Shown here in pieces: positions 4,698 to 44,200 of a stretch of DNA of 64,000 nucleotides. The position numbers and the translations under genes were made by a program. Origin of the DNA: Chryseobacterium sp. OSA05B (GTDB taxonomy: Bacteria > Bacteroidota > Bacteroidia > Flavobacteriales > Weeksellaceae); assembly GCF_019970065.1 (NCBI RefSeq), contig NZ_JAHXYH010000004.1, positions 248,001 through 312,000 of the forward strand. Direction: 5' to 3'. Positions within the stretch are counted from its first letter, which is position 1; the number at the start of each line of letters is the position of its first letter. The notes below the pieces were generated by a model, which had not been told where the DNA came from, did no database searches, and saw nothing but the letters and a program-made list of their open reading frames with translations.

Positions 4698-4756
4698 GTA
4701 TCAAAACGCATTTGGCTTTAGCTAAACCTATCATTTTAACCCCAAAATCACCAACA

Positions 4757-28616: not shown

Positions 28617-30018
28617 CATCAATAAAATATTTTTTTACGGCGCAATGGTCTCTGTATTGGCATCCTGCGCTGTAAGAAAACCTTATGCAGGAACGGATGT
28701 CAGCATCCCTGCAGCATACAGAGATCCCGTAAAAGTAACCGGAGATACTATCGTTCTCCCCTGGAAGACGTTCTTCAAAGATCAGAAACTTCAGGGATTA
28801 ATAGAAAAAGCACTGGCTAAAAACAATGAAGTTTCCATAGCGCTTAAGAATATGGAACAGCTGGATCAGGCCTATAAACAGGCAAAAAATGCATTGCTGC
28901 CAACGCTTGATTTCAGTGCAGGAGCCAACAGAAGCTGGGCCTCGAAAAACAGCCTTAACGGATCGCTTAATGAGCAGTTCACCGGGAATAAATACATCGA
29001 TGATTTCAGTGCTACCCTCAGGCTTTCCTGGGAAGTGGATATCTGGGGGAAATCGAAAATGCAGAAAGAATCGGCTGCAGCGGGATACTTTGCACAGAAA
29101 GAAAACCTGGATGCCTTAAAAAGCAGAATCATTGTTCAGGTGGCACAAGCCTATTACAATTTAATTAGTCTGGATGAACAGCTGAAAATAGCGGAGAGAA
29201 ATATTGACTTAAGCAATAATACGCTTCAGATGATGAATCTCCAGTTCAAGGCGGGACAGATCAATTCATTGGCAGTACAGCAGTCGGAAGCGCAGAAGAA
29301 AACAGCAGAGCTGTTGATTCCACTGGCCAAACAGAATATTTCTGTTCAGGAAAATGCCTTGAGCATTCTTTGCGGAGAATATCCCGGAAGTATTGAAAGA
29401 GAAGGTTATCTGTCAGAAATGATTCCTGAAAATAAGTTGTCAGAAAGCATTCCTGCCCAGTTATTGAGCCGTCGCCCGGATCTGAAAGCCGCAGAGCTCA
29501 ATGTAATCAGCCTGAATTCAAAAACAGGTCTGGCAAAAGTAGCGATGTACCCAAGCATCAGCCTTTCGCCACAAATCGGGCTGAATTCGAATAAATTTAA
29601 TTCATGGTTTGACCTGCCGGGATCGATCACTAAAACACTGGCAGCCAACCTTACAGCCCCTATTTTTCAAAAGAGAGAGCTGAAAACGGCTTACGAAACG
29701 GCGGTGATAGAACAGGAAAAAGCTGTAATCACTTTTAAGCAATCCGTTATGACGGCTGTAGGTGAAGTTTCTGATGCTATGGCTAAGTCCAAAGGTTCTT
29801 CTGAAAGGTTGGAATTGCTGGAGCAGAGAACGGCTATTTTAGATAAAGGAATCAACGATGCGCTGAAACTGTATAAAAGCGGAATGGCGACCTATCTGGA
29901 AGTTATCACAGCCCAGAATAATAAACTTCAGAATGATCTGGAAGCCGTGAATGTCACCCTGGAAAAACTCAACGCAGAAGTTGATTTGTACAGAGCATTA
30001 GGAGGCGGAACTCATTAA
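28603..30018 (+). CDS. TolC-like outer-membrane efflux lipoprotein (NodT/OprM type)
   Basis: This protein of about 471 residues starts with a lipoprotein signal ending VLASC. Two outer-membrane-efflux repeats follow: ALAKNNEVSIALKNMEQL, RLSWEVDIWGKSK and VAQAYYNLISLDEQL in the first half; SRRPDLKAAELNV, ANLTAPIFQKRELKTAYE and LYKSGMATYLEVITAQN in the second. These are classic NodT/OprM landmarks. It forms the exit duct of the pump. The start at 28603 gives a normal signal peptide; the ATG at 28576 is an alternative. Confidence 0.92.
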   Translation: MKLFNINKIFFYGAMVSVLASCAVRKPYAGTDVSIPAAYRDPVKVTGDTIVLPWKTFFKDQKLQGLIEKALAKNNEVSIALKNMEQLDQAYKQAKNALLPTLDFSAGANRSWASKNSLNGSLNEQFTGNKYIDDFSATLRLSWEVDIWGKSKMQKESAAAGYFAQKENLDALKSRIIVQVAQAYYNLISLDEQLKIAERNIDLSNNTLQMMNLQFKAGQINSLAVQQSEAQKKTAELLIPLAKQNISVQENALSILCGEYPGSIEREGYLSEMIPENKLSESIPAQLLSRRPDLKAAELNVISLNSKTGLAKVAMYPSISLSPQIGLNSNKFNSWFDLPGSITKTLAANLTAPIFQKRELKTAYETAVIEQEKAVITFKQSVMTAVGEVSDAMAKSKGSSERLELLEQRTAILDKGINDALKLYKSGMATYLEVITAQNNKLQNDLEAVNVTLEKLNAEVDLYRALGGGTH

Positions 30019-30105: not shown

Positions 30106-30741
30106 TTAGTTTTGGTTGACTGTTGTCGTACCTGAGTTTCTTAATGCTTTCTTTAAACTGTCTGAAAATATTACCAGCCCGGCAGCCATCATGATGATGT
30201 CTTTTAAAACCAATCGGCCGGCCCCTGATAGATAAGGAAACCCGAATTGTGGTGTGGAAAAATCTCCGCCCAGATCAGGAACATATACTTCCGGAGTCGT
30301 TACAAGAAAAGAGAGTGTTACGAAAGACATGATGAAAGTTAAAGCTCCACCCAAAGCTCCAATCTTGGGATACCATATACCGAGCAGCACCAAAATAGCG
30401 ATCATAATAATCATTGTTCCTAATCCGTAAGAAAATGCATAAGTTCCGTTTTGGGTGTGCCAGTCGATGTTTTTCTTGACCGTTTTCCCTTCAGGATTTT
30501 TGTACAATGTATATTCTGAAACCGTTTTTTGTTCTTTGTTAAGTATCTTATGATCTGCATTTTTATAGAAGAAGCTCATAAAAGGGCTGTTGGCCACGAA
30601 AGGAACAATTCCGTCAGCTTCATACCGATAAGCTTTAAGACCTCCGATCCAGGCCATCACGATGAATATGGAGATTCTTAAAAAATGAAGGAAATAAGAA
30701 TCTAATCTGAGAAGATGGGTGTAGAGTGTATTGTTTTGCAT
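30106..30741 (-). CDS. DUF417 (YkgB/RclC-like) membrane protein
   Basis: The 211-residue protein has about four membrane segments. The family core is near the N-terminus: FIVMAWIGGLKAYRYEADGIVPFVANSPFM, where 'WIGxLKxxxYEAxGI-PxVANSPxM' is typical of DUF417. Later segments include GLGTMIIMIAILVLLGIWYP and a C-terminal LSGAGRLVLKDIIMMAAG, also conserved. In E. coli the member RclC protects against reactive chlorine species. An AraC-type regulator gene lies 63 bp upstream on the same strand. The ATG at 30741 is preferred over 30783 because the family begins there. Confidence 0.85.
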   Translation of the reverse strand: MQNNTLYTHLLRLDSYFLHFLRISIFIVMAWIGGLKAYRYEADGIVPFVANSPFMSFFYKNADHKILNKEQKTVSEYTLYKNPEGKTVKKNIDWHTQNGTYAFSYGLGTMIIMIAILVLLGIWYPKIGALGGALTFIMSFVTLSFLVTTPEVYVPDLGGDFSTPQFGFPYLSGAGRLVLKDIIMMAAGLVIFSDSLKKALRNSGTTTVNQN

Positions 30742-30804
30742 CTGATTTATTTTTCCACAAAGGTATTTCACTGCAGAATGCACAAAAATAGAGATATCAG
30801 GACA

Positions 30805-31635
30805 TTACATGGACATTTTGGCTACGATGGAAATGCCTACTTTCTCCCGGTATTTTTTTGGAGAACAACCCACTGATTTCTTAAAATACCGGCTGAAATA
30901 AAATTCATCACTAAATCCCAAATCTGAGGCGATCTCCTTTACTGAACGGTAGGTCAAATGAAGAAGTCTTTTGGCTTCCAGGGTTATTCGTTCGTTGATT
31001 AGCTGGCTGGGGCTTTTATCGAATTCTTTCTTAATGGCTTTGCTCAAGGTACTGTTGGTGATATTAAGCTTCCCACTGTAGAACGACAGTTCTTTTTCGT
31101 CCTTAAAATGAAGTTCCAGCAGTTTTTGAAATTCAGCGGCGTTTTTATTGGGAAGCCTTTCAGTGGATAGTTGTTCCTCCATGCTGCCGCTTTTCTGTTT
31201 GCTGCAGATCGCCAGGATCAGCTGTATGTATGTTTTAATGATGGATTCTGAGAAAAGATGGTTTTCAGAAAGCTCATGTCGGATATGATCAAAAATCCCT
31301 AGAATATATTGATAACTATCTGAGGTCAGCTTGATACCGGGATTGAGATAAATATTATTGAACAAAAGTCCATTGCAGGCCACTTCTTCCTTATGATATT
31401 CTATACAGTAGTCATCGCCGTGAAAGAACAAAATAGAAATTGGATCATCCGTTTCCGAAATCAGCTTTAATTTTTGATAAGGTGTAAGGAAAAGAACAGT
31501 GCAGTCTTCATAAGAATAATTAATCTGATCCACCGAAAAAACACCGGTTCCTTTCAATAAAATTACACCATAATTCTCAGTATTAAAGTCTGAAGGAAAA
31601 ACGGATGCGGGATAGGATTGTATTTGCACTGACAT
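30805..31635 (-). CDS. AraC-family transcriptional regulator
   Basis: The protein has about 276 residues. The N-terminal part is cupin-like (beta-rich, with a YSYEDCTVLFLTPYQKLKL segment and several Cys). The C-terminal domain has two helix-turn-helix motifs, including LNITNSTLSKAIKKEFDKSPSQL and IASDLGFSDEFYFSRYFKKSVGCSPKKYRE, the AraC signature. It is encoded just upstream of the DUF417 gene and is its likely regulator, as RclR is for rclC in E. coli. An in-frame ATG at 31698 would add 21 untypical residues. Confidence 0.88.
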   Translation of the reverse strand: MSVQIQSYPASVFPSDFNTENYGVILLKGTGVFSVDQINYSYEDCTVLFLTPYQKLKLISETDDPISILFFHGDDYCIEYHKEEVACNGLLFNNIYLNPGIKLTSDSYQYILGIFDHIRHELSENHLFSESIIKTYIQLILAICSKQKSGSMEEQLSTERLPNKNAAEFQKLLELHFKDEKELSFYSGKLNITNSTLSKAIKKEFDKSPSQLINERITLEAKRLLHLTYRSVKEIASDLGFSDEFYFSRYFKKSVGCSPKKYREKVGISIVAKMSM

Positions 31636-31828
31636 GGAATAAATATAGGAAATATTCAGGAGTTGAGTGTTTTTTGATGTTAGAAGCTTTTGTAACATAA
31701 TGTTAAATTAAATGGGGAATGAAAAACATGAAATAGAAAAAGTAATTCATTTCAAAATAAAATAAAATTTTTACCATCATATAATCAACGTGTTACAATA
31801 AAATTTCATCCTTTTTTCAAAATCCCAT

Positions 31829-31870
31829 GCAAGATTTCTCAAAAAACGGATTTTATAGATGAGTACTCAA
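31829..31870 (+). promoter_or_regulatory. Promoter-like motif of ECF cassette 1
   Basis: GCAAG-ATTT at 31829-31837 and ATGAGTACTCAA at 31859-31870 recur at nearly the same spacing (30 versus 31 bp) upstream of cassette 2. The proximal element lies 36 bp before the lipoprotein start. It may be the promoter recognised by the cassette's own ECF sigma factor. Confidence 0.5.
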
Positions 31871-31905
31871 TACAATTAATGTTTAATGTTAAAAAAAATA
31901 ATGAA

Positions 31906-32487
31906 ATGAAGAATTTAATAGTACTTAAGGTTATCACCGCCGTTTTGATTATATCCATCATCTTCTCCCTGTTCTCATGCATGAATGAGGACAGGATAGA
32001 AGTACCACCGGTAAAGCTGGAACATGTCAACGGAGATTATAAAGGAAGGCTGATTACGGTTCAGGGAGAGATCAGAGGCGAAAGAGTTGTGGATTTTAAA
32101 ATAAAGAAAGATACCCTTACATTTCCGGAATTTCCGATCAAAGAAATTGTAAAAGCGGTTGTGAAAGATCCGATAAAAACAGAAACAGCATTGGCTGCTA
32201 TGGGAAAAGTGAAATACAAGCTGAATTATACCTCTGTATTAAATGCTGAGAAAAACTGGGTAGAGCTTACTTTCGCACCTAAGGAGCTTGAGCTTCAGAT
32301 CCCGGTAGACGGTGTCAATAAAAAGGCTGTAGTTACCCTGGCGACCAAGCAGAAAGGTTATTTTATAGGATTGGATTATACACTGAGATTCGTTCTTGCA
32401 GCAGAAAAAATCACAGTAAACGGAACAGAACTGGCCCCTTTTGAACCGATTTATTATAATTTTCCATACTGTATAAAGATTAATTAA
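31906..32487 (+). CDS. DUF4840-like lipoprotein, cassette 1
   Basis: This 193-residue lipoprotein (IIFSLFSC lipobox) continues with VNGDYKGRL, FPIKEIVKAVVKDPIKTETALAAMGKVKY and a C-terminal FEPIYYNFPY. It is clearly paralogous to the protein at 35846-36439, sharing V-N-G-D-Y-x-G, TFPEFPIKEI, GKVKY-x-LNYTS and QIPVDGVNKK. The pattern resembles Bacteroidota DUF4840 proteins, an assignment from memory only. It is the first gene of a cassette with an ECF sigma factor and a barrel protein, and may be the main output of that regulon. Confidence 0.7.
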   Translation: MKNLIVLKVITAVLIISIIFSLFSCMNEDRIEVPPVKLEHVNGDYKGRLITVQGEIRGERVVDFKIKKDTLTFPEFPIKEIVKAVVKDPIKTETALAAMGKVKYKLNYTSVLNAEKNWVELTFAPKELELQIPVDGVNKKAVVTLATKQKGYFIGLDYTLRFVLAAEKITVNGTELAPFEPIYYNFPYCIKIN

Positions 32488-32505
32488 TAGATAGATTATA
32501 TGAAC

Positions 32506-32540
32506 AATAGATTGTGTTTTGCCGGATGCAGTCTATTTTT
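32506..32540 (+). terminator. Terminator between lipoprotein and ECF gene, cassette 1
   Basis: AATAGATTG (32506-32514) pairs with CAGTCTATT (32529-32537, one G-U) and is followed by Ts. Cassette 2 has a hairpin terminator at the equivalent place. Confidence 0.65.
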
Positions 32541-32583
32541 GCTTAAAATTTTAACCGGCTGCTAAACCGGACCTGACCCATAC

Positions 32584-33150
32584 ATGGAAGAAAACAAAGA
32601 GCAGATTTTGATAAGACGCCTTCTCACGAAGGAAGAAGCTGCCTGGAAAGAACTTTTCGGAAGCTATTCCGGAAACCTTGCCGGGGTCTGCGCTCGTTAT
32701 ATTCCGGGAAAGGATGATGTTCATGATGTTCTGCAGAACAGTTTTATCAAAATGTTCCGGTCCATTGAAACATTTGAATACAGAGGAAGCGGCTCATTAA
32801 AGGCATGGATGATCCGGATCACCGTCAATGAAGCTTTGAAACATATCAAGCAGCATTCCGGTATGACAACAGATACGGATCTGGCTGAATTTCCGGATAT
32901 CCCCAATGAGGAAGAACCCGATCTGCAGGAAATTCCGCAGGCTGTCATTATGAAAATGATCCGGTTGCTCCCTGATGGCTACAGAACCGTTTTCAACCTG
33001 TTTGTATTTGAGAAGAAAAGCCACAAGGAGATTGCAGAGCTTTTAGGCATAGCAGAAAACTCGTCCGCCTCCCAGTTTCACAGGGCGAAAGGACTGCTTG
33101 TCCAGAAAATTAAAGAATATAAAATGTCAAAAAAAGCACAATATGAATAA
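32584..33150 (+). CDS. ECF RNA polymerase sigma factor, cassette 1
   Basis: The 188-residue sigma-70 family protein has region 2 with DDVHDVLQNSFIKMFRSIETFEYRGSGSLKAWMIRI (the core-binding and -10 recognition helices) and region 4 with LPDGYRTVFNLFVFEKKSHKEIAELLGIAENSSASQFHRAK. It is paralogous to the sigma factor at 36514-37083. Its gene overlaps the following barrel-protein gene by 8 bp, so that protein is the likely regulator of its activity. Confidence 0.93.
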   Translation: MEENKEQILIRRLLTKEEAAWKELFGSYSGNLAGVCARYIPGKDDVHDVLQNSFIKMFRSIETFEYRGSGSLKAWMIRITVNEALKHIKQHSGMTTDTDLAEFPDIPNEEEPDLQEIPQAVIMKMIRLLPDGYRTVFNLFVFEKKSHKEIAELLGIAENSSASQFHRAKGLLVQKIKEYKMSKKAQYE

Positions 33151-34534
33151 TCAGTGGCTAAATGACCTTCACAGGAAAATGGAAGACCACGAAGAGGATA
33201 TTCCGGATGGGCTGTGGGAAGATATAAAAGATGAGCTTTTTTCTGATGGAGAAGAAAACGGAATAGCTGGAGCTATGATATTTGGAGATGATGAAGAAAA
33301 AGAAAATATAAATCCTTCTACTCCAGGTAGAAGATCCCTGTGGTATCGTGTAGGAGGAATTGCGGCCGCTATTGCTATGCTGTTCTTTACCGGAAAATTA
33401 TTGCTGGATATGAATGCAGAGAAGAACAATCCTCAGATTACAAAAAAATCTGAAAATGCTGATGATAATTCCCAATCCAAAAGGAAAATCACAGATCCTG
33501 TATTAGCAGATACCCATTATAAAACAAAGGCTGCTAAGGTTGAAAAATACAGTAATGTTAAAAATATATTGACCGGTAAAACAAGCACTGAGCAAATTTT
33601 AAAAAATATATTAGGACAGGGAATTGATCATGATAAAGTGATCTTAGGATCCCAGGGAAAAGAAAAAGGAGCTGAACTTTTAACGAAGGAAACCCAACCC
33701 ACTAATACCTCTCCTTTAGCCAATGAAAATCCCGTATTAAAAGACAAAAAAGAAGTTGAGGAAATTTTTAATACAGAGCATGAACTTCACGAAAAGATAG
33801 CTGTTGCAGAAAAGCCTAAACTTCCGGGGCGTCAGTCCAAAAAATGGATGCTGAGTATGCTTACAGGAAACGTTTCCTCAAACTCCTCCGAACAGAAGTT
33901 TCCGGGATACGCTTCCATCAGCGGCAGCCCGATGACTTTTAGTGAAATATGGATATCCGGAACGGAAACAGATCCGCTCACTGAAGTTCTGCTGGCCAAC
34001 CAGAGTAAGGAAGTTGAAGCAAGAATCAGACATAAAATCCCTGTGACATTTGGCTTGTCAATGTATTACAATATCGGGAAAAGATGGGGAATAGGAACCG
34101 GGGTCAATTATACGAAACTTACCTCAGAGCTGCATTCCGGAAGCAATTCCAATTATATAAAAGGCGAACAGAGCGTCCACTATATCGGTATTCCTGTTCA
34201 GGTCAATTATAATGTGATTCAGAAAGGAAGATTTACAGGATATGTAACCGGCGGGGTACTTGCGGAAAAAGCAGTAGCAGGAAAGCTTAGGACAAAATAT
34301 ATAGTCAATGATGAAGTGACAGAAACTCAGGACGAGCGCCTGGATGTGAGGCCGATACAATTTTCAGTGAATTCTGCGATAGGTCTTCAGGTGAAAATTA
34401 TTGATAAAATCGGAATCTATGCTGAGCCTGGAATAGGGTACCATTTCAAAAACGACAGCCAGCTGAATACCATTTACAAAGAAAAACCTTTAAACTTTAA
34501 TATGAAGTTCGGGATCAGGCTATTACTGGACTGA
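33143..34534 (+). CDS. Trans-envelope protein: anti-sigma-like head plus barrel domain, cassette 1
   Basis: The protein has about 463 residues. The first 70 are acidic and cytoplasmic-looking (NDLHRKMEDHEEDIPDGLWEDIKDELF). One membrane segment follows (about 72-95, RVGGIAAAIAMLFFTGKLL), then a long charged linker and a C-terminal domain of about 170 residues with alternating strands (FGLSMYYNIGKRWGIGTGVNYTKL, HYIGIPVQVNYNV) typical of PorT/outer-membrane beta-barrel proteins, ending in a strand NMKFGIRLLLD. The head could hold the sigma factor while the barrel sits in the outer membrane. The ATG at 33143 overlaps the sigma gene. Confidence 0.75.
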   Translation: MNNQWLNDLHRKMEDHEEDIPDGLWEDIKDELFSDGEENGIAGAMIFGDDEEKENINPSTPGRRSLWYRVGGIAAAIAMLFFTGKLLLDMNAEKNNPQITKKSENADDNSQSKRKITDPVLADTHYKTKAAKVEKYSNVKNILTGKTSTEQILKNILGQGIDHDKVILGSQGKEKGAELLTKETQPTNTSPLANENPVLKDKKEVEEIFNTEHELHEKIAVAEKPKLPGRQSKKWMLSMLTGNVSSNSSEQKFPGYASISGSPMTFSEIWISGTETDPLTEVLLANQSKEVEARIRHKIPVTFGLSMYYNIGKRWGIGTGVNYTKLTSELHSGSNSNYIKGEQSVHYIGIPVQVNYNVIQKGRFTGYVTGGVLAEKAVAGKLRTKYIVNDEVTETQDERLDVRPIQFSVNSAIGLQVKIIDKIGIYAEPGIGYHFKNDSQLNTIYKEKPLNFNMKFGIRLLLD

Positions 34535-34575
34535 CCGCTATAAAAAAACTAAATCCAACCATTAAATATTTAAAT

Positions 34576-35538
34576 ATGAAAACCAAACTGATTTTTTTGG
34601 CTTTACTATTCATGACCCTAATGAATGTAAAAGCACAGTGTAATCCCACCATTACAAGCCCGAGACTGGGCGTAAAATTTCCGGATAAGATCGTGTTCTG
34701 CAATACCGAAACAGAGACACTTTCTACCCAAACATTCGGAGTTTATCAATGGTACAAACAGGAATGGACATGGCAGACCCCAAACAACAATCCATGGACA
34801 GCAATTCCCGGAGCAACTTCACAAACATTGACAATCAATGGAAACGATGATCAGCTCTATTATTTTAAAGTACAGGTTACTGAGGGTGACTGTACCGCAG
34901 AAAGCCCGGCAGTGATGGCAGATGGATTTGCCTATGCTCTTCCCGCGATGCTCAGCACTTTTACCCCCGGAACTTACGAGGATCTGGGCGAAGGAGAATA
35001 TAATGTCTGTGCCGGAGCATCCGTAAGATTTGATGATGTATTTCCTGATCTTTACGGGAATCATGTGTGGTACAGATGTATTCCCAGCAGCCCGCCGCCT
35101 TCACCGGGAGATCCTTGTGTGGTGAATGGAGTAACCGGAGATTCCTATACAGCGGTAGATTCCGGATCATTCGGATTCTATGCCTGTACCGAGTATTGCC
35201 CGGATCAGTGTGAATTTTTGGGAACAGGAAATTTTGTAAAGCTGAATTTCGGAAACTTTGATTTCTGTACGCTGGCAACAGGCGAAACAAAACGTAAAGA
35301 AAACAGCCTGAAAATATACCCGAACCCTACGGCACAGTTCCTTTATATCGGGAAAGATTCCGACAAAACGTATAAGGAGATCACCATTATTGATATGTCC
35401 GGAAAAGTGACCCTGCAGAAAAACAGCCATCGTTTTAGTGAACCCATTGACGTAAGTAGCTTGGTTCCTGGAAATTATATTATTCTTTCTAAAGACACAG
35501 AAGGAAACACGTACAAGAACAAATTCATAAAAAAGTAA
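34576..35538 (+). CDS. T9SS-secreted protein with type A sorting domain
   Basis: This 320-residue protein has a signal peptide (LIFLALLFMTLMNVKAQ), a central beta-rich region with several Cys and an Ig-like YQWYKQEW...GATSQTLTI pattern, and a C-terminal type IX sorting domain: LKIYPNPTAQFLYIG, then ITIIDMSGKV, VSSLVPGNYIIL and NKFIKK at the end. It should be exported by the T9SS and attached to or released from the surface. It follows the cassette-1 barrel gene by 41 bp. Cassette 2 has no equivalent. Confidence 0.85.
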   Translation: MKTKLIFLALLFMTLMNVKAQCNPTITSPRLGVKFPDKIVFCNTETETLSTQTFGVYQWYKQEWTWQTPNNNPWTAIPGATSQTLTINGNDDQLYYFKVQVTEGDCTAESPAVMADGFAYALPAMLSTFTPGTYEDLGEGEYNVCAGASVRFDDVFPDLYGNHVWYRCIPSSPPPSPGDPCVVNGVTGDSYTAVDSGSFGFYACTEYCPDQCEFLGTGNFVKLNFGNFDFCTLATGETKRKENSLKIYPNPTAQFLYIGKDSDKTYKEITIIDMSGKVTLQKNSHRFSEPIDVSSLVPGNYIILSKDTEGNTYKNKFIKK

Positions 35539-35540
35539 AT

Positions 35541-35620
35541 AGTACACATCCTGAGAGTTAGTTTTTTTTAATCGCTGATAAGCCGGTATAGAGACAGTCT
35601 GTACCGGTTTGTCTTTTTAT
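35541..35620 (+). terminator. Terminator repeat ending cassette 1
   Basis: CCGGTA (35583-35588) pairs with TACCGG (35602-35607), with an inner AGAC/GTCT helix, followed by TTTGTCTTTTT. The whole 80-bp block is almost identical to 39106-39183 at the end of cassette 2. Confidence 0.8.
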
Positions 35621-35763
35621 GGATTACAAAATTGTGTAAAATAGACTTAAAGGATATGGGGATAAACATGTATTAATTCTACTTTGATATCCACATTTAT
35701 TTTTCTTTCGTTAAATAATTATATTGATAATCAGTAATTTATGTGTTTTGTTGGGTTTTTCAG

Positions 35764-35806
35764 GCAAGGATTTGAATTTGTTGCATTTATATAAATGAGT
35801 ACTCAA
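35764..35806 (+). promoter_or_regulatory. Promoter-like motif of ECF cassette 2
   Basis: GCAAGGATTT at 35764-35773 and ATGAGTACTCAA at 35795-35806 match the cassette-1 motif in sequence and spacing. It lies 40 bp before the lipoprotein start. Confidence 0.5.
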
Positions 35807-35845
35807 AGTAAATATTTTTTAATCAACAATTAATTCAAATTTAAA

Positions 35846-36439
35846 ATGAAAAAGTTCATAAACTTCAAAGCTTTATCCATGTTATTAATCTTGCTAAGTT
35901 TTACTTTTAGTGTAACAAGCTGTAGAGATGATGATGATAAAAAACCAAAACCAAATCCTGATACCCTCAAGGTTGAAGACGTAAATGGAGATTATTCGGG
36001 TAAAGTGGTTATATCAAAAGGAACTGTTACCGGTGAAACCAATCTGGTTTTCAGTGCCCAGAAAAATATCATATCCTTTACGGAATTTCCGATAAAAGAA
36101 ATCATTACAACTGTGATCACCGATCCTGTGAAAGCAAATCAGGCATTAACGGCTATTGGCAAGGTTAAATATGAGCTGAATTATACGTCTGCTTTGAATA
36201 AAGAAAAAAAAGAAGTTGAGCTTACTTTTTCTCCAAAGGAATTGACTATTCAGGTTCCCGTAGATGGGGTCAGTAAAAAAGTAGTAGTAACATTTGTCCC
36301 AACAAAGAAAGGAGTGTTTACAAAAGGAAAGACGCAAAATCTGAACTTCGAGCTGGAAGCAACAAAAATTACAGTTGAAGGGACGGCAATAAATCCATTC
36401 GAAAAAATAAAATACAACTTTCCTATGCTGAAGAAATAG
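35846..36439 (+). CDS. DUF4840-like lipoprotein, cassette 2
   Basis: This 197-residue lipoprotein (FSVTSC lipobox, then a DDDDKKPKP charged spacer) is paralogous to 31906-32487. Shared landmarks are VNGDYSGKV, FTEFPIKEIITTVITDPVKANQALTAIGKVKYELNYTS, QVPVDGVSKKVVVT and a C-terminal INPFEKIKYNFP. The acidic spacer after the lipid Cys is often seen in surface-exposed flavobacterial lipoproteins. A hairpin terminator separates it from the sigma gene, so the lipoprotein may be made in excess. Confidence 0.7.
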   Translation: MKKFINFKALSMLLILLSFTFSVTSCRDDDDKKPKPNPDTLKVEDVNGDYSGKVVISKGTVTGETNLVFSAQKNIISFTEFPIKEIITTVITDPVKANQALTAIGKVKYELNYTSALNKEKKEVELTFSPKELTIQVPVDGVSKKVVVTFVPTKKGVFTKGKTQNLNFELEATKITVEGTAINPFEKIKYNFPMLKK

Positions 36440-36458
36440 CCGTAACAAAGAATTGTTC

Positions 36459-36486
36459 AGGTGTGCTTGAGATAGCACACCTTTTT
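36459..36486 (+). terminator. Terminator between lipoprotein and ECF gene, cassette 2
   Basis: AGGTGTGCT (36459-36467) pairs perfectly with AGCACACCT (36474-36482), followed by TTTT. Confidence 0.85.
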
Positions 36487-36513
36487 ACTCATATTAAATT
36501 TGGGATGCGGTAA

Positions 36514-37083
36514 ATGCCTGAAAAAGATAATCCAGAGATAAAACTGTTGACACGTTTGGTTAAAAAGGAACAATCGGCTTGGAAAGAATTCTATAATTCT
36601 TATTCAAGAGAGCTTACGTCCATATGCAGAAGATACCTCAAAGGAAATGATGACATTCATGATATCCTTCAAAACAGCTTTATTAAAATGTTTCACCATA
36701 TAGACACATTTAATTATATGGGAGAAGGCTCTTTAAAAGCATGGATTGTGCGTATTGTGATTAATGAAGTTCTGCAATATATAAGACGTTTTTCAAAGAT
36801 GGAGTTTTCCGCAATGGAAGAAGAAATAATAGATAAAGAAGATGAAGAAGAGCCGGAGCTGTCAGATATTCCCCTGGAGGAACTTATGACCATGATAAAA
36901 TTCCTTCCTGATGGATACAGGATTGTTTTTAATCTCTATGTATTTGAAAATAAGTCTCATAAAGAGATTTCGCAATTGCTTGCCATAAGTGAAGGTTCTT
37001 CAGCGTCTCAACTGCATAAAGCTAAACGGAAACTTATACATGAAATTAATATATACAAACAATTTAAAAAGGAGGCCCTATGA
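36514..37083 (+). CDS. ECF RNA polymerase sigma factor, cassette 2
   Basis: The 189-residue sigma factor is paralogous to that of cassette 1. Region 2 has DDIHDILQNSFIKMFHHIDTFNYMGEGSLKAWIVRI, and region 4 has LPDGYRIVFNLYVFENKSHKEISQLLAISEGSSASQLHKAK. The two region-4 helices are similar but not identical, in line with the shared but not identical promoter motifs. Its stop overlaps the following gene by 4 bp (ATGA), so the barrel protein is translationally coupled. Confidence 0.93.
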   Translation: MPEKDNPEIKLLTRLVKKEQSAWKEFYNSYSRELTSICRRYLKGNDDIHDILQNSFIKMFHHIDTFNYMGEGSLKAWIVRIVINEVLQYIRRFSKMEFSAMEEEIIDKEDEEEPELSDIPLEELMTMIKFLPDGYRIVFNLYVFENKSHKEISQLLAISEGSSASQLHKAKRKLIHEINIYKQFKKEAL

Positions 37084-38480
37084 AAGATAAATGGTTAGCC
37101 GACCTGAAAAATAAGTTTGAAGGTCATGAGGATGATCCACCGGATGGCATTTGGATGAGTATTGAAAAAGAACTGTTTTCGGAAGAAGAAAGCAATGTTT
37201 TTCCGCTGCTGCCTGCTAACGACATTACAGAAAACCAAGATGATAAAAAGCATAATAAGAATAAGCTACGTCGTATAATAGGTACATTAAGTATCGCAGC
37301 TGGAATTGCAGTTTTGGTTTCTGTGGTATTTTTTCGCGAAACGAAAAATGATGCTATTCAAAATCTTACAGAAAGCAGACAACAGAAAATGACTAAAGAG
37401 AATTTGCTGTCATCTTCTTCACCAGATAGCATTAATAAAGACTCTGTTGTTTCGAATTTTGAAGTTCATAAAAAGGATTTCAACCTTAAGAGTCAGATAG
37501 CTCTTGGAAATGAGTTGTTTCATATCATTAAAGCCAATACAACATACGTGTTGCACAATGAACTTTATGACTATTTAAAAATACAAAGTAAAAGTATCGA
37601 ATCTGCGAATCGCTATAATCTTCAAAATAGTGAAGACGACAGTTTAAAGACCGGAGTGCTTGCTGCTTTAGGAAAAAACGATAAAAATAACATTGATTCT
37701 CTAACCACAGTAACATATTCAGGAGAAAACCTGGCTCAAATTGATATTTATAAGAAAAGGGAAAGATTGAACGCCGATCGAAAGTGGTCTCTAGGTTTTA
37801 TTTCCGGGCCACCTATATCCAGTTCTTCCCCTTCTTCCCATCAGCTGGAAGGCTATGTAATGATGAACGGAAATCAGCTGGAGATTCCGGCTGGCAGTGA
37901 AGAAGAAGCGGAAGAGGGGCCATTAGGGGCCATCTTTGCAGGAAATATGTACGAAAATGTAAAAACAGACATCAGGCATCGGCTTCCTGTAAAGCTTGGA
38001 TTATCCGTTTTTTATCAGCTGGATGATCATTGGTCTGTCAGTACAGGAATAACGTATGCCAGGCTTTCTTCAGATCTGTTATCAGGGACTGAAGCGAATA
38101 TGATCAGAGGAGAGCAAACCGTTAAATATGTAGGAGTTCCTGTTCAGATTCATTATAAAATATGGCAGAAAGGAAATACATCTGTGTATGCCGGTGCCGG
38201 TGTTCAGGTGGAAAAACCAATCTCGGGAAAAATGAAAACAAATTATATAGTCAATCATGAAGTAGTGGAGAGTTTTTCAGAGAAACTTAACGTAAACTCA
38301 TTACAAATTTCTTTGAATGCCGGTGGTGGAGTTCAATATAAGGTTTTCAGAAATTTTGGGATCTATTTTGAACCCAGCCTGAGGTATAACTTTAAGGACG
38401 GAAGTGAGATTAGGACCCTCTACAGGGAAAAACCACTGAATCTGAACTTAGAATTTGGAGTACGATATTCCATTCAATAA
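37080..38480 (+). CDS. Trans-envelope protein: anti-sigma-like head plus barrel domain, cassette 2
   Basis: The 466-residue protein has the same plan as 33143-34534: an acidic cytoplasmic head (LADLKNKFEGHEDDPPDGIWMSIEKELF), one membrane segment (about 62-82, IIGTLSIAAGIAVLVSVVFF), a long polar linker, and a C-terminal barrel-like domain (LGLSVFYQLDDHWSVSTGITYARL, KYVGVPVQIHYKI, FGIYFEPSLRYNF) ending in LEFGVRYSIQ. The heads are conserved between the paralogues while the linkers differ freely. That fits a sigma-binding head and a spacer crossing the periplasm. Confidence 0.75.
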   Translation: MKDKWLADLKNKFEGHEDDPPDGIWMSIEKELFSEEESNVFPLLPANDITENQDDKKHNKNKLRRIIGTLSIAAGIAVLVSVVFFRETKNDAIQNLTESRQQKMTKENLLSSSSPDSINKDSVVSNFEVHKKDFNLKSQIALGNELFHIIKANTTYVLHNELYDYLKIQSKSIESANRYNLQNSEDDSLKTGVLAALGKNDKNNIDSLTTVTYSGENLAQIDIYKKRERLNADRKWSLGFISGPPISSSSPSSHQLEGYVMMNGNQLEIPAGSEEEAEEGPLGAIFAGNMYENVKTDIRHRLPVKLGLSVFYQLDDHWSVSTGITYARLSSDLLSGTEANMIRGEQTVKYVGVPVQIHYKIWQKGNTSVYAGAGVQVEKPISGKMKTNYIVNHEVVESFSEKLNVNSLQISLNAGGGVQYKVFRNFGIYFEPSLRYNFKDGSEIRTLYREKPLNLNLEFGVRYSIQ

Positions 38481-38723
38481 ACACAGCCTGTTGAGAACGA
38501 TTTAATGATGAACAAAAGGAATGGTAAAAAATCAACTGACAGACCTTTGATTGTACCAATCCCGGATCTCATCACTGAGCCGTAAAAATATAGTTAATTA
38601 AACCCATATGTAATTAAATGAAGTTAAGTATTTAAGGATTTATTTTTTTTTGAGCCATTTCATTGCTTTTTGAAGTGGCTCTTTTTACCCAATAAAGTTT
38701 CTTCCGAACTAAATAAGAGCGTG

Positions 38724-39086
38724 ATGAAAAAAAATAAAAAAATAGAAAACTGTGCAAATAGTCTATATAATGAATTCCCAAAAGCTGAAGTATTCATTAA
38801 ATACGCTAAAAACATCAACGTTAGTGAAGGAATACTATATGTGGCAGAACAGGAAGATTGCCATTGGTTTTTGGATATTGTGGTTCATAACTGCATCATG
38901 GTGAATGAAATTAAGTATCAAAAATGGCAGCTTTTAAAAAATCCGGATGGTGAAATTTTGGTGGTGGTATCAGACAGGAAAGGCAATAGGTTATTAGAGA
39001 TCAATGTACCCGAAAAAGACTTTTATTTTTCAAGCTTTACGATCTGTAAAATAAGTAATGATCTGCTGATGCCCTGTGAACAATAA
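38724..39086 (+). CDS. Small DUF6876-like protein
   Basis: The protein has about 120 residues and no signal peptide. The central ILYVAEQEDCHWFLDIVVHN followed by KYQKWQLLKNPDGEILVVVSDRKGN and a C-terminal FTICKISNDLLMPCE resembles DUF6876 proteins (YWLLD... W.L ... DGN ... LPSEY), an assignment from memory. It occupies the position in cassette 2 that the T9SS protein holds in cassette 1, and is followed by the same terminator repeat. The start at 38724 is chosen over 38670, whose extra residues look random. Confidence 0.55.
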   Translation: MKKNKKIENCANSLYNEFPKAEVFIKYAKNINVSEGILYVAEQEDCHWFLDIVVHNCIMVNEIKYQKWQLLKNPDGEILVVVSDRKGNRLLEINVPEKDFYFSSFTICKISNDLLMPCEQ

Positions 39087-39105
39087 ATGCGCTGGTTCAT
39101 AAAGT

Positions 39106-39183
39106 AGTGCACATCATGAGTTAGTTTTTTGTTAATCGCTGATGAGCCGGTATAGAGGCAGTCTGTACCGGTTTGTCTTTTTG
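39106..39183 (+). terminator. Terminator repeat ending cassette 2
   Basis: CCGGTA (39147-39152) pairs with TACCGG (39166-39171) and is followed by TTTGTCTTTTT. The block is a near copy of 35541-35620. Confidence 0.8.
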
Positions 39184-39283
39184 TTGAAATTTTTTATAAA
39201 ATGTATACAGAAGCTTAAATCTGTTAATTTTAAAGAATAAATTTTGAAAAATTATATTCTCTATTTTTACCAAAAACACAATC

Positions 39284-40819
39284 ATGCTGGTAAAAATTTA
39301 TGGAAGTGCCATCCATGGAGTGGCGGCACAAACCATTACTATTGAAGTGAATGTAGACACTGGAGGCGTAGGCTATCATCTGGTCGGGCTTCCTGATAAT
39401 GCCATTAAAGAAAGCAGTTACAGAATCTCCGCTGCCTTAAGAAATGTAGGACACAAAATTCCCGGAAAGAAAATCACCATCAATATGGCTCCCGCCGACC
39501 TCAGGAAAGAGGGTTCTGCCTATGACCTCAGCATAGCCATTGGAATCCTGGCCGCTTCAGACCAGATCCTGGCTGAAAATATTCAGGATTACATCATCAT
39601 GGGCGAGTTGTCATTAGACGGAAGCCTGCAGCCAATCAAAGGAGTGCTTCCTATTGCCATACAGGCCAGAGAAGAGGGTTTTAAAGGAATTATCCTTCCC
39701 ATGCAGAATACCCGGGAAGCCGCCATTGTAGACAGCCTTGAAGTGTATGGTGCAGAAAATATCAAAGAAGTAATTGATTTCTTTAACGAAGGAAAACCGA
39801 TCAAAAGAATTGTATTAGACACCAGAAAAGAATTTCAGGAAAAGATCAATGATTTCCCGTTCGATTTTTCAGAAGTTAAAGGACAGGAAACCGCAAAAAG
39901 AGCCATGGAAGTGGCAGCGGCTGGAGGGCACAATATCATCCTCATTGGTCCGCCGGGTAGTGGAAAAACCATGCTGGCCAAAAGAGTTCCGGGAATTTTA
40001 CCGCCTTTAACCCTTAAAGAAGCTTTAGAAACAACCAAAATACATTCTGTAGCCGGTAAAATTGGAACTGAAACATCTCTCATGACTGTTCGTCCTTTTC
40101 GCTCACCTCATCACACGATTTCGGATGTGGCGCTGGTAGGCGGCGGAAGTTATCCTCAGCCCGGAGAAATTTCACTGGCACACAACGGAGTTTTGTTTCT
40201 GGATGAAATGCCGGAATTTAAAAGAACGGTTTTAGAAGTCATGAGACAGCCGCTTGAAGATCGTGAAGTAACCATTTCAAGAGCTAGATTTACCGTCAAC
40301 TATCCTGCCAGTTTTATGCTCATAGCATCCATGAATCCCAGTCCCAGTGGTTTTTTTCCCGATGATCCGGGGAATACTTCGTCCGTTTACGAAATGCAGC
40401 GGTATATGAATAAACTGTCGGGACCTTTATTAGACAGGATCGATATCCATATTGAAGTACAGAAAGTTGAGTTTGAACAGCTTGCCGAAAAAAGGAAAGG
40501 AGAGAAGAGTTCAGATATCCGGGATCGCGTTCTGAAAGCACGCAGTATTCAGAATGAGCGCTATAAAGATTTAAATATCAGCTATAATGCTCAAATAGGA
40601 CCAAAGGAAATTGAGGCATTCTGCAGCCTGGATGACACCTCACTTCACCTTATCAAAATGGCTATGGAGAAGCTGAACCTTTCCGCCAGAGCTTATGACA
40701 GGATCCTGAAAGTAGCAAGAACCGCCGCTGATCTTGAAGGATCTGAACCCATACTTTCCCATCATATTTCAGAAGCCATCCAATACAGAAGCCTGGACCG
40801 GGAATTTTGGAATATATAA
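39284..40819 (+). CDS. YifB/ComM-type Mg-chelatase-like AAA+ ATPase
   Basis: The 511-residue protein has the N-terminal Lon-like domain typical of ComM (KIYGSAIHGVAAQTITIEVNVD, FHLVGLPDNAIKES-type segment, PADLRKEGSAYDLSIAIGIL). The AAA+ domain follows with Walker A GPPGSGKTMLAKR, Walker B VLFLDEMPEF, and the Mg-chelatase C-terminal region (LSARAYDRILKVARTAADLEGS). ComM-type helicases promote branch migration during natural transformation. Length and all motifs are intact. It stands alone on its transcript. Confidence 0.93.
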   Translation: MLVKIYGSAIHGVAAQTITIEVNVDTGGVGYHLVGLPDNAIKESSYRISAALRNVGHKIPGKKITINMAPADLRKEGSAYDLSIAIGILAASDQILAENIQDYIIMGELSLDGSLQPIKGVLPIAIQAREEGFKGIILPMQNTREAAIVDSLEVYGAENIKEVIDFFNEGKPIKRIVLDTRKEFQEKINDFPFDFSEVKGQETAKRAMEVAAAGGHNIILIGPPGSGKTMLAKRVPGILPPLTLKEALETTKIHSVAGKIGTETSLMTVRPFRSPHHTISDVALVGGGSYPQPGEISLAHNGVLFLDEMPEFKRTVLEVMRQPLEDREVTISRARFTVNYPASFMLIASMNPSPSGFFPDDPGNTSSVYEMQRYMNKLSGPLLDRIDIHIEVQKVEFEQLAEKRKGEKSSDIRDRVLKARSIQNERYKDLNISYNAQIGPKEIEAFCSLDDTSLHLIKMAMEKLNLSARAYDRILKVARTAADLEGSEPILSHHISEAIQYRSLDREFWNI

Positions 40820-41241
40820 TTGTGAAATTCATGATAATTCTTAAATTTCAATAATTTCATTGGCTTTATAACCTTCGGTGTTTTTTAAGGATTTCATCTG
40901 GATGTACTTCAATTTCTACTATGTGATTTTCTTGATTCTGCCGATTAGCTGATGAACATCAGTGTTTTTAATTTAATTCTCTGTTTTGGGAAAGTTTACG
41001 CTTATTTAATCTTTTGTGTAAAATATTATGTTAAATTTGATTACCAAATTTTTAAAAATATTGCATTATGAAAGAAAAATCTATTAACGAAATCTGATAA
41101 GATAGTAGTTAAATAATATTCCTGAAGAATTAATCATATTCTTTATCGGTTGAATTGTAATAGACTGTTTTTAAACGTGTTTACGGTTCTGCTATGCAGA
41201 TCATCCCGACCTTTTATTATCAACCAAAACCAAAAACTAAT
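40820..41241. other. Intergenic stretch before the NRPS-like gene
   Basis: It is AT-rich with no convincing gene or repeat. A TAAATTTG word (41032-41039) fits a Bacteroidota -7 element, but a matching -33 element is not clear. A 9-codon ORF at 41068 looks accidental. Confidence 0.4.
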
Positions 41242-44200
41242 ATGCCAAATACATTATCAACACCATCTGGGCAATCCGCCGGTGCGCCGGTTCTTTTATC
41301 TTCAGAGGACCGTGAAAAACTTCTCAATGATTTCAATGCCACAAGCTGGGATTATCCTCAAGAAGAAACACTGGTTTCCCTCTTCAGAAAGCAGGTATCC
41401 CTTAATCCTGAAAATACTGCTGCTGTCTATAAGAACGAACAAATCTCGTATAGGGAACTGGATCAGAAAAGTAATCAACTTGCCAACGCCCTTCTGGAAA
41501 AAGGAATAAAAGAGGGAATGTATGTTCCGGTATGGCTGGATCGCTCATTAGAATGGCTGGTCGCTATTCTTGGAGTCCTTAAAACCGGAGCTGCCTATGT
41601 GCCCATAGATCCGGCTTATCCTGCAAAACGGGTAGAATATATTCTTACAGACACCTCTGCAAAAATTATACTTACCGATCAGCTACGGGGGAATCTGCTA
41701 TTGGCCGGAATAAAGACTGAAGTTTTTTACGTGGATCAGATAGAAAATATTGCTGATTTTTCTTCGGAGCAACCGGATATTTCGCTTCACCAGGATGCAT
41801 TGGCTTATACGATCTACACCTCCGGTTCTACAGGAAATCCAAAAGGAGTAATGATATCCCATCACAGCATCCAGCATCTTGTCACATGGCACAATCATTA
41901 TTTTCATGTGGATCATACCTCACACCTTACGCTTGTCGCAGGACTGGCATTTGACATCTCGGTATGGGAAACCTGGTCGGCACTTACGGCCGGTGCTGTG
42001 ATTTTTATCGCAGATAATGAAGATAGAGTAGAAGCTTCAGAACTGGTGAATTATTACCGTAAAAACCGCATTACCCACGGATTTGTACCATCAGTTCTTG
42101 TTCCTTCTGTCGTCGCTGAAACCAGAAATTATACAGATCTGAACCTTAAATACCTTTTTACAGGAGGCGAAAAATTAAAGCCTGTTCTGAAAAGCGAATT
42201 GAGTTATGAGCTGATCGATTATTACGGCCCTACGGAATGTACAGTGTATGCAACCTTTAAAAAAGTGAAAGACATCAATGGAGCCTATGTTTCTTCCATC
42301 GGGAAACCGGTTGCCAATGCAAAGGCGTATATTTTAGGGGAAAATAATGAACTTCTGCCTGTTGGAGCAGTCGGAGAACTATACATTGGAGGAAATATTC
42401 TTGCTAAAGGTTATCTCAATAATGAAGAGCTTACCGCTTCTAAATTCATTGCCAACCCGTTTAGGGAAAACGAAAAACTGTACCGGACCGGAGATCTCGC
42501 CCGCTGGAAACCTGAAGGGGATATTGAGTTTTTAGGAAGAATAGACAATCAGGTGAAAATCCGTGGATTCCGGGTGGAACTTGGAGAAATAGAGCGCACT
42601 CTTGCCCGTTTGGAAGGGATACAGGAAGCTGCAGTGATCACCAAAGATCATGCGGGTAGCAATAAATATATCGTTGCTTTTATTGTATTTAAATCTGATG
42701 TAAAAGCAGATGCGGCCTGGATAAGACAGCAACTGAAAGAAGACTTGCCTGGCTACATGATCCCTGCGCAAATTGTAAGTGTAGATAAAATACCCCTCAC
42801 AGTCAATGGAAAAACCGACACTCATTTCCTGAAAGAACTGGCAGATAAAGAGGCCAAAGAACTTATTTCTACAGAACCACCTACCAACGAGACCGAGAAA
42901 ATTATTGCCAATATCTGGGCCGAGGAACTGGAACGTCCAGTGATCAATGTTACAGATAATTTCTTTGATATAGGCGGAAACTCTCTGCTTGTTGCGATTG
43001 TTGCTACAGCGTTGAATTCAAGAATTGATACTAAAGTCTATATGCGGGATATTTACCAGTTTCCGGTATTGAAACAGCTCGCAGATGAACTGATCACCAG
43101 AGCCAAAGAAGCCCGTGAAGCTATTCCTGTGGAAGATGTTGAGCCGTATGTTGCTCTTCAACAGGATGTCTACCTTGCTCCGGGAACTGTTTTTGCCGAT
43201 GGTTTTGATCCTAAACAACTGGAACATCCAAAGACGATATTTTTGACTGGAGTAACCGGATTTGTCGGAATTCATCTTTTGCAGGAACTTTTAGATACGA
43301 CGGATGCCAATATTTACTGTCTGGTAAGAGCTCAGGATGAATTTCATGCCGTGGAGAAAATAAACCGATGTTTTAAACAGTATCATATAGAACGAAAAGA
43401 GAATCAGAAACAGAGAATAATTCCAGTCATTGGTGATCTTTCTCTTCCGTTACTGGGCCTTTCTGATGAGGTGTTCAAAAATCTTGCAGGGATGCTTGAC
43501 CTCATTTATCACTCAGGAAGTTCTGTGAATTTTATTGAACCTTATTCCTATATGAAAGCGCCCAATGTAGAAGGATTAAGAGAGATTATTAAACTGGCCG
43601 GAGCCGAAAAGACCAAATGTCTTGCACTGCTGTCTACTATTTCCGTTTACAGCTGGGGACACGTGTTCACTGGTAAAACAGTCATGCTGGAAAGTGATGA
43701 CATTGCCCAGAATCTGATGTCGGTAAGCAAAGACATTGGCTATGTAAGAAGCAAATGGGTGATGGAAGCAGTCGCTGATCTGGCGGCTAAACAAGGTCTT
43801 CCGCTGATCACTTACCGTTTGGGATATGCTATGTGTCACAGCGAAACAGGTGCAAGTGCGCCTTATCAGTGGTGGTCCGGTTTGGTGAAAAACTGTGTAG
43901 AATTTAAATCTTATCCATTGCTAACAGAGTTAAGAGAAGGCTTGATCACAGTAGACTATATGACCAAGGCCATGGCACACATCACAAAAAATAAAGAAGC
44001 GGTAGGGAAGAAATTTAATCTGATCGCCAGACCGGAAACCAATCTTACTCTGGAAAGTTTCTTTGCGCTGTTGAAGAAATATTATCCGCTGATCCTTGAA
44101 GGTCTTCCTTATAAAGAATGGAGAAAACAGTGGGAAGATGACAGTAAAAACCGGTTATACCCTCTGACCAGCCTTTTTAAGGATAATATGCATGAAGGGC

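Follow-up and report, generated by a model that had tools for sequence, protein, structure and literature searches.

How does an event at the outer membrane reach a sigma factor in the cytoplasm through a single polypeptide? This question, still open from the Dma and Reo anti-sigma factors, is raised anew by two gene sets, A and B, that lie side by side in a stretch of DNA from Chryseobacterium sp. OSA05B (contig NZ_JAHXYH010000004.1). The whole stretch analysed, 64,000 nucleotides long, is called the window, and positions are counted from its first letter. Each set encodes a lipoprotein of the DUF4840 family, an extracytoplasmic function (ECF) sigma factor similar to Das, and a putative trans-envelope anti-sigma factor similar to Dma and Reo, here also called the barrel protein (Table 1). 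Our preferred reading, to which we give a probability of about 0.7, is that each cassette is a signalling unit of the Dma/Reo type, with a surface lipoprotein as its main output and a freed sigma factor that drives its own operon. The cassettes are genuine, comparison supports them well, and their design is one already known. The elements that appear to be new are the DUF4840 output, its one-to-one relation to an upstream motif, and a hint of a promoter shared across the phylum; the likely output and its promoter had no place in the initial annotation of this DNA. With them the system gains a Chryseobacterium form, a candidate output and an explicit promoter sequence, which predicts new regulon members, including serpin lipoproteins in two families of Bacteroidales.

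Two gene sets side by side

The six genes are the open frames in which the initial annotation had seen two paralogous three-gene sets, and the paralogy stands. The sigma factors of both sets match Sigma70_r2 and Sigma70_r4_2 (E 6e-12 to 3e-14), and in an NCBIfam scan the superfamily model sigma70-ECF alone is over its cut-off among the models shown. The two lipoproteins score 63.2 and 60.6 bits against a gathering cut-off of 24.4 for PF16128. Between A and B, the lipoproteins are 50%, the sigma factors 55% and the barrel proteins 33% identical (single comparisons, E 1e-62 to 5e-71), a similarity far beyond chance in these pairwise comparisons. The count of three genes does not stand for set A, which has a conserved fourth gene for a type IX secretion system (T9SS) protein: the order lipoprotein, sigma factor, barrel protein, T9SS protein is kept in 42 of the 43 loci scanned (L029-L071, including re-fetches of species already present in a locus set with 6-kb flanks), and the lone exception, L071, is of a divergent type. 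In L005 and L013, too, block B includes the DUF6876 gene with which it ends in the window. We place the start of lipoprotein A at 31906 and not at 31879, as the former aligns with a Met column that is invariant in 36 of 36 rows. The nearest named relative among the matches listed is C. herbae, with a barrel protein 90% identical.

A predicted trans-envelope protein

What does the third protein of each set look like? In the AlphaFold model of barrel protein A, made with a 40-row alignment, two head helices (residues 4-14 and 24-33) precede a long helix (64-92), residues 92-228 are disordered, and the barrel runs from residue 235 to the end. The predicted local distance difference test (pLDDT), averaged over blocks of ten residues, is 66-87 for residues 231-290 and 80-94 beyond; the model as a whole has a mean pLDDT of 63.9 and a predicted template modelling score of 0.49, low because of the disordered linker. 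Structure comparison with VIA-align matches the barrel to OprF (Z 17.0, root-mean-square deviation 2.2, 132 aligned residues), NspA (Z 16.2) and OmpA (Z 16.0), whose barrels have eight strands. A PDB sequence search with the same protein gives no convincing relative (best E 0.39).

The alignment of A, B and 38 relatives extends this picture. The head side of the inner-membrane helix is the more positive side in 37 of the 40 rows, and the linker is 112-159 residues long in all 40 (about 145 in the two sets) with none of its 136 columns conserved at 90% or more. Such a roughly constant length without conserved sequence is as expected of a tether. The most conserved parts are the barrel and the head core, and A and B agree at 20 of 38 positions in the head core, 9 of 130 in the linker and 92 of 230 in the barrel. 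The predictions fit a protein with a cytoplasmic head, one inner-membrane helix, a flexible tether and an outer-membrane barrel, resting on the AlphaFold model for protein A, on homology and a hydropathy helix for protein B, and, for all 40 proteins of the alignment, on linker length, charge and hydropathy. The head, single helix, linker and C-terminal barrel proposed in the initial annotation are thereby borne out at the level of prediction; a soluble periplasmic fold of the C-terminal domain, named there as an outcome that would speak against the proposal, is not predicted, since the structure comparison gives an outer-membrane barrel.

The next question is whether the head holds the sigma factor. 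Neither Pfam nor NCBIfam recognises an anti-sigma domain in the head. We infer binding to the cognate sigma factor from the overlap of the two genes (8 bp in set A, 4 bp in set B), from homology to Dma1, Dma2 and Reo, and from a natural fusion of sigma factor and barrel in locus L112 (1495-3138, minus strand), in which an ECF sigma domain is followed by a hydrophobic helix, a linker and a barrel, without a head domain. Homology to the Dma/Reo family is measured against the Bacteroidales protein of L023, which has the same layout: this L023 anti-sigma factor, adjoined by a lipoprotein that matches the NigD1/NigD2 model NF051862, is 29% identical to barrel protein A (E 1e-56 among candidate stretches). 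Across 78 sigma-Dma pairs, in which some genomes are represented by several re-fetched loci, the two genes overlap or lie at most 17 bp apart, and at the loci read outside Chryseobacterium the ECF gene is upstream of the Dma-like gene, or fused to it in L112.

Two side observations concern such fusions. In layout, L112 resembles the published description of Dma3. Locus L116 (506-1998) has a sigma-like frame of 228 residues followed by a shortened barrel frame of 269 residues, possibly a broken or altered fusion.

Comparison with known systems

The same layout is published for Dma/Das of B. thetaiotaomicron (PMC13088901): an N-terminal sigma-control domain, a transmembrane helix, a disordered tether and a C-terminal barrel, with an adjoining ECF sigma gene. 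That source describes hypervesiculation of a dma2 mutant that requires das2; the operon of the system itself is given as one of the most induced in the dma2 mutant, and the lipoprotein NigD1 as raised through Dma1/Das1. The present cassettes differ in their Chryseobacterium host, in being two neighbours, in having DUF4840 and not NigD, and in the T9SS protein of operon A; the vesicle phenotype is one of B. thetaiotaomicron.

A second relative is the EcfO-Reo pair of Phocaeicola vulgatus and Bacteroides fragilis, whose anti-sigma factor, like the one predicted here, is said to span "all five bacterial compartments" (PMC13114119). M0N98_03760 of P. vulgatus is described as spanning the periplasm with a C-terminal barrel (PMC9308784, which PMC13114119 calls its own report), and outer-membrane stress is the proposed trigger of the Phocaeicola pair (PMC13114119, PMC9308784). 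Three nigD lipoprotein genes depend on EcfO in P. vulgatus (PMC13114119), much as lone DUF4840 genes share the motif here; the output family is different, and the published inducers of EcfO-Reo are antibacterial toxins and oxygen. The initial annotation had implied that one polypeptide from the outer membrane to a sigma factor would be new, and in this it was overtaken by both published systems.

A more familiar route is FecI-FecR-FecA signalling, in which an outer-membrane event controls an ECF sigma factor via a TonB-dependent receptor that is distinct from the FecR-type anti-sigma factor. The cassettes would share the control of an ECF sigma factor by an outer-membrane event, but would do so with a single polypeptide; a Pfam scan of the cassette proteins finds no FecR or TonB-receptor domain. 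A literature search for Chryseobacterium together with anti-sigma factor and ECF sigma factor gave nothing beyond a review, judged by its title.

A motif upstream of the lipoprotein genes

Upstream of each lipoprotein gene lies a motif of the form TGCAAGATTT, 11 or 12 bp, GATTTATA, TGAGTACTC, which is common to A, B and Myroides with small changes. The first box differs slightly between A and B (TGCAAGATTT vs GGCAAGGATTT), and GCAAG, TTT/TATA and TGAGTACTC are common to the A, B and Myroides sites. We find exact TGAGTACTCA in 17 of 19 A-type upstream regions (window, L005-L022); L014 has GGAGTACTCA, and in L008 an upstream region anchored on an overlong start missed the TGAGTACTCA that the locus carries at 4714. 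The full palindrome TGAGTACTCA is present in 42 of 59 genuine sites, that is, 61 listed sites minus two in unrelated sequence. The motif of element B is also present in L005 and L013. Within the 5.25-Mb genome of the strain itself, TGAGTACTCA occurs at four places, two of them these cassettes and the other two without the first box, and the strong matches of a model built from sequence only are the two cassette promoters alone (A 7e-16, B 4e-11, the next row having E 0.04). When the 43 scanned loci are set against the training set, 8 cores are identical to a training row, 32 are new and 3 fall outside the strict core; two of the last score with the model, and L071 scores weakly, its site lying behind its Dma gene. 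We infer that the motif is the promoter of the cognate sigma factor.

How closely do the motif, the lipoprotein and the anti-sigma gene keep company? At E <= 3e-5 there are 61 motif sites in 54 of 78 Chryseobacterium genomes, and DUF4840, Dma-like genes and the strong motif occur in the same 54 genomes. Exactly one strong motif lies upstream of each of the 61 DUF4840 places (within 600 bp, 141-230 bp before the matched domain), and no strong motif in the 78 genomes is left without a DUF4840 gene. Of the Dma places in the genus, 57 were counted, and every one has the motif upstream on its own strand (57 places from 60 rows, with three pieces of a broken gene in genome G063 and two pieces of the second copy in G013 each counted once). 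Four DUF4840 genes have no Dma gene within 3 kb downstream (in G023, G070 and G030, and one in G013).

In the genomes sampled, DUF4840 is found only where the anti-sigma gene is also present. Dma-like matches occur in 11 of 395 genomes of a phylum sample and DUF4840 in 7, all of them among the 11; Chryseobacterium accounts for 6 of the 11 and for 6 of the 7. An order-wide search gives Dma-like matches in 22 of 296 genomes, all in Chryseobacterium, or 1 of 90 genera (Myroides came from the search for barrel-protein relatives). The reach within Flavobacteriales therefore seems narrow, with the reservation that few candidates were scored per genome, which makes the absences in both searches soft.

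Two genomes show unusual arrangements. In G063 (C1:2258449-2261156), a genome listed as 75% complete, the Dma gene is in pieces and the DUF4840 gene has an internal stop, with the motif kept. In G013, a second, divergent cassette (L106:6029-10805) consists of DUF4840, an extra 174-residue protein, the sigma factor and Dma, followed by a lone DUF4840 gene, and each DUF4840 gene has its own motif.

The DUF4840 lipoproteins

The acidic residues that follow the lipobox Cys bear on where the output would be located. At least two acidic residues at positions +2 to +6 are found in 30 of 36 DUF4840 lipoproteins, as in a lipoprotein export signal. Because acidic residues after the lipoprotein Cys are described as surface-export signals (PMC5080379, PMC6222051), the DUF4840 lipoproteins are likely to be exposed on the cell surface. 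No mention of DUF4840 was found in the literature searched.

The AlphaFold model of lipoprotein B (block pLDDT means of 95-98 from residue 41 on) is a meandering barrel with two inserted helices. Its VIA matches are middling, with 3rwx at Z 9.8 and then mostly members of the avidin family at Z 7-8. Foldseek gives no PDB match at E <= 0.001, and LolB- and LolA-like entries appear among its weak rows (best E 0.008), a relationship that we do not claim; a PDB sequence search with lipoprotein B gives no convincing relative (best E 0.006, partial).

NigD lipoproteins (PF12667/PF17415) likewise sit beside Dma/Das, and DUF4840 is a different Pfam family. The window lipoproteins have no NigD Pfam match at E <= 1, and NF051862 gives 13.9 bits on lipoprotein B against a cut-off of 60 and no match on lipoprotein A. 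Pfam names NigD an OB domain plus a beta-sandwich, in contrast to the meandering barrel of the DUF4840 model. A structural kinship of the two families is not supported: Foldseek gives no PDB match at E <= 0.001, and the VIA list has no entry named NigD, an absence that by itself excludes nothing.

The motif beyond the genus

Does the same promoter serve more distant cassettes? By Pfam, the six Bacteroidales lipoproteins found beside Dma/Das are NigD in L023, L108, L109 and L111 and DUF4840 in L107, with no match in L024. The NigD1/NigD2 cut-off is passed by L023, L108 and L109; L024 is below it and L111 has no match. An almost identical two-box element stands before the NigD gene of L023, and the TGAGTACTC part is not seen in the Bacteroidales cassettes. 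A position weight matrix from 56 Chryseobacterium and Myroides sites, applied to 15 upstream regions of 13 Bacteroidales cassettes with 1000 dinucleotide shuffles each and with the training gaps only, gives p < 0.05 in 6 of the 15 (L023, L024, the sigma side of L109, L110, L111 and L113). The Fisher combined p is 2e-7 over the 15 regions, likewise with one region per locus (13 loci), and 8e-6 without L023. An earlier run that allowed a gap of 13, one beyond training and picked after viewing the Bacteroidales sequences, had given 8e-8.

The pattern TGCARNNTTY-N12/13-ATTTA, loosened after viewing the Bacteroidales sites, matches 21 places in five Bacteroidales genomes, where a reversed control matches 5. 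Four of the 21 precede the sigma genes that guided the pattern, one of them (L156) falling within its sigma gene if the longest frame is taken. Six lie 23-55 bp before lipoprotein-like genes and are the sole new evidence from this search: the targets are NigD, two serpins from different Bacteroidales families, and lipocalin-like, Ig-like and fimbrillin-like proteins, the last (L168) below the Pfam cut-off. The remaining 11 look like chance, with no sigma gene or convincing lipoprotein start just downstream and several inside coding frames; one of them (L160) is 116 bp before an HlyD-type gene with a lipoprotein-like start. The single match in the strain's own genome is before a dicarboxylate symporter. 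These results are a hint that the two-box part of the motif is conserved in distant Bacteroidales and would be a phylum-wide promoter.

The two serpin-family genes (L154:231-1466 and L167:227-1459, both on the minus strand) lie right behind a predicted Das promoter, in two Bacteroidales families.

Proposed mechanism and its alternatives

Gene order, predicted topology, family membership and the co-occurrence of motif, lipoprotein and anti-sigma gene are what the computation gives, and around them we propose the following mechanism. The barrel would lie in the outer membrane, and the inner-membrane helix and the long flexible tether would connect it to the cytoplasmic head, which at rest would hold the ECF sigma factor. 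Disturbance of the outer membrane, ligand binding by the barrel or failed assembly of the barrel would be signalled along the tether, and the head would release the sigma factor. The freed sigma factor would transcribe from TGCAAGATTT, about 11-12 bp, GATTTATA, plus TGAGTACTC in Chryseobacterium and Myroides. This promoter would drive the operon of the sigma factor itself, which comprises the genes for the DUF4840 lipoprotein, the sigma factor and the anti-sigma factor, plus that for the T9SS protein in set A. The same promoter precedes the lone DUF4840 genes that some genomes have at other places, and these would also be driven. DUF4840 would then hold the position that EcfO-driven NigD lipoproteins have in Phocaeicola and NigD1 has in the Dma1 pathway of B. 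thetaiotaomicron. Because the promoter boxes of A and B are nearly the same, the two sensors, each through its own sigma factor, probably act on a single common output. A broader proposal, for which the odds seem to us slightly short of even, is that trans-envelope anti-sigma systems across Bacteroidota use one common, conserved promoter code and amount to a general switch for the deployment of surface lipoproteins (NigD, DUF4840, lipocalin-like, serpin and others) on outer-membrane disturbance, with two sensors feeding one DUF4840 output here.

Several points weigh against these proposals. Two strong sites in the strain's own genome would mean a very small regulon, unless further targets are read from weaker sites. 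Some of the sites used to train the motif model come from Chryseobacterium itself, and the TGAGTACTC part could be the operator of another protein. Eight weak model matches (E 0.002-0.009) in 8 of the 78 genomes are excluded from the counts above; one of them, in G039, is without Dma and would make a 55th genome. As to the wider code, 9 of the 15 Bacteroidales upstream regions miss p < 0.05 (L114-L117 at p 0.48-0.91), the Bacteroidales upstream sequences had been inspected by eye before the matrix was applied, and the phylum and order searches scored 4-5 candidates per genome.

How would the signal be released, and does the barrel protein act on the sigma factor at all? A sacrificial route, as against a conformational release, is a possibility that we hold a little less probable than not: the barrel would be a client of outer-membrane assembly and not a ligand sensor, it would report assembly capacity and not an outside signal, and its failed insertion would lead to periplasmic proteolysis of the unfolded barrel or linker and so to release of the sigma factor. 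The conservation of barrel and head core agrees with this, as does the stress response proposed for the Phocaeicola pair. The headless fusion of L112 points the same way, in that its sigma domain directly precedes the hydrophobic helix and a soluble release in that type would need cutting; the linker, however, with its lack of conserved columns, offers no stretch that resembles a conserved cut site. A quite different view would make the barrel protein an outer-membrane protein with an uncleaved signal-anchor, merely co-transcribed and without sigma control. Apart from a head that the domain databases do not recognise, little speaks for it, and we consider it very improbable given that the head core is conserved, that every annotated locus with a Dma gene has an ECF gene directly upstream (or fused, in L112), and that the dma2 phenotype of B. 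thetaiotaomicron needs das2.

The alternatives on the promoter side concern what reads the motif. It may be an RNA element or the site of an unrelated regulator and not the promoter of the cognate sigma factor, as the restriction of the TGAGTACTC part to sites outside the Bacteroidales cassettes and its palindromic form in most genuine sites would allow. We regard this as unlikely: there is no Rfam match at the gathering threshold in 31000-40000 of the window, several Bacteroidales cassettes repeat the first two boxes, in some cases in front of a sigma gene, and the spacing of the boxes would suit a -35 and a -10 box. If the motif is a sigma promoter, as we prefer, A and B may still be insulated from each other, each sigma factor reading its own promoter and the likeness of the motifs reflecting shared ancestry only. 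ECF paralogues are often specific, the two sigma factors have diverged to 55% identity, and the first boxes are not quite the same. Against insulation, which we rather doubt, the helix-turn-helix stretch is much alike in sigma A and B (SSASQ.H.AK), and the box elements common to A, B and Myroides have persisted though A and B form separate clades. Similar boxes and alike helix-turn-helix stretches make cross-talk between A and B our default expectation.

History of the two cassettes

The initial annotation called the cassettes tandemly duplicated, which is right for their position and misleading for their age. The sigma and Dma trees resolve A (28 rows) and B (3 rows) into distinct clades that part outside the A radiation, which rules out a recent tandem duplication; several branches are long, and the exact place of B is unsure. 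The lipoprotein tree parts A and B on one branch, with Myroides among the A rows and the root open, and B is joined by the lone lipoproteins from three further genomes (97/100). Set B is found in the window and, among 17 named Chryseobacterium loci taken with 6-kb flanks, in two, those of C. herbae (L005) and C. vrystaatense (L013). Of the 78 genus genomes, two have it, the strain's own and G062; G013 carries a different, divergent second cassette. A 62-nt repeat has two copies that flank B in the window, L005 and L013, and loci that lack B but match the repeat hold a single copy, which lies between the T9SS gene and comM wherever the locus includes both. Because the repeat is double around B and single where B is absent, either B was inserted, or a few lineages retained it while recombination between the repeats removed it from others.

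Features of the locus and its neighbours

Table 1. Features of gene sets A and B (positions in the window; domain limits in residues)
Feature	Position	Strand	Details
Promoter-like element A	31828..31869	+	TGCAAGATTT 31828-31837, ATTTTATA 31850-31857, TGAGTACTCA 31860-31869
DUF4840 lipoprotein A	31906..32487	+	lipobox LFSC then MNEDR; PF16128 E 3e-17
ECF sigma factor A (Das-like)	32584..33150	+	Sigma70_r2 + r4_2
Trans-envelope anti-sigma factor A (Dma/Reo-like, putative)	33143..34534	+	OMP_b-brl_2 E 1e-9; AlphaFold
Domains of barrel protein A	head 1-63, helix 64-92, linker 92-228, barrel 235-463		
Type IX-secreted protein, C-terminal sorting domain, gene 4 of operon A	34576..35538	+	PF18962 E 3e-11, TIGR04183 E 6e-12
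62-nt terminator-like repeat, copy 1	35562..35623	.	inverted repeat around GCCGGTA...TACCGG, then T run
Promoter-like element B	35764..35805	+	GCAAGGATTT, GCATTTATA, TGAGTACTCA (35796-35805); sequence model E 4e-11
DUF4840 lipoprotein B	35846..36439	+	lipobox VTSC then RDDDD; PF16128 E 2e-16
ECF sigma factor B (Das-like)	36514..37083	+	Sigma70_r2 + r4_2
Trans-envelope anti-sigma factor B (Dma/Reo-like, putative)	37080..38480	+	OMP_b-brl_2 E 2e-11; hydropathy helix 66-84
DUF6876 gene, last of B block	38718..39086	+	PF21781 E 3e-14; start uncertain, longest frame from 38670
62-nt terminator-like repeat, copy 2, before ComM-type gene	39126..39187	.	92% identical to copy 1

Three neighbouring regions of the window can be read as well. 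RclC is a reactive-chlorine resistance protein, and 30106-31698 (minus strand) encodes a DUF417 membrane protein close to it (NF040476, 262.7 bits, cut-off 275) beside an AraC-type regulator. On the plus strand, judged from sequence, 25458-30018 holds a 1052-residue frame followed by an outer-membrane efflux-type protein and resembles a resistance-nodulation-division pump operon, and 41194-44349 encodes a protein of 1051 residues with the look of a combined amino-acid adenylation, carrier and reductase protein.

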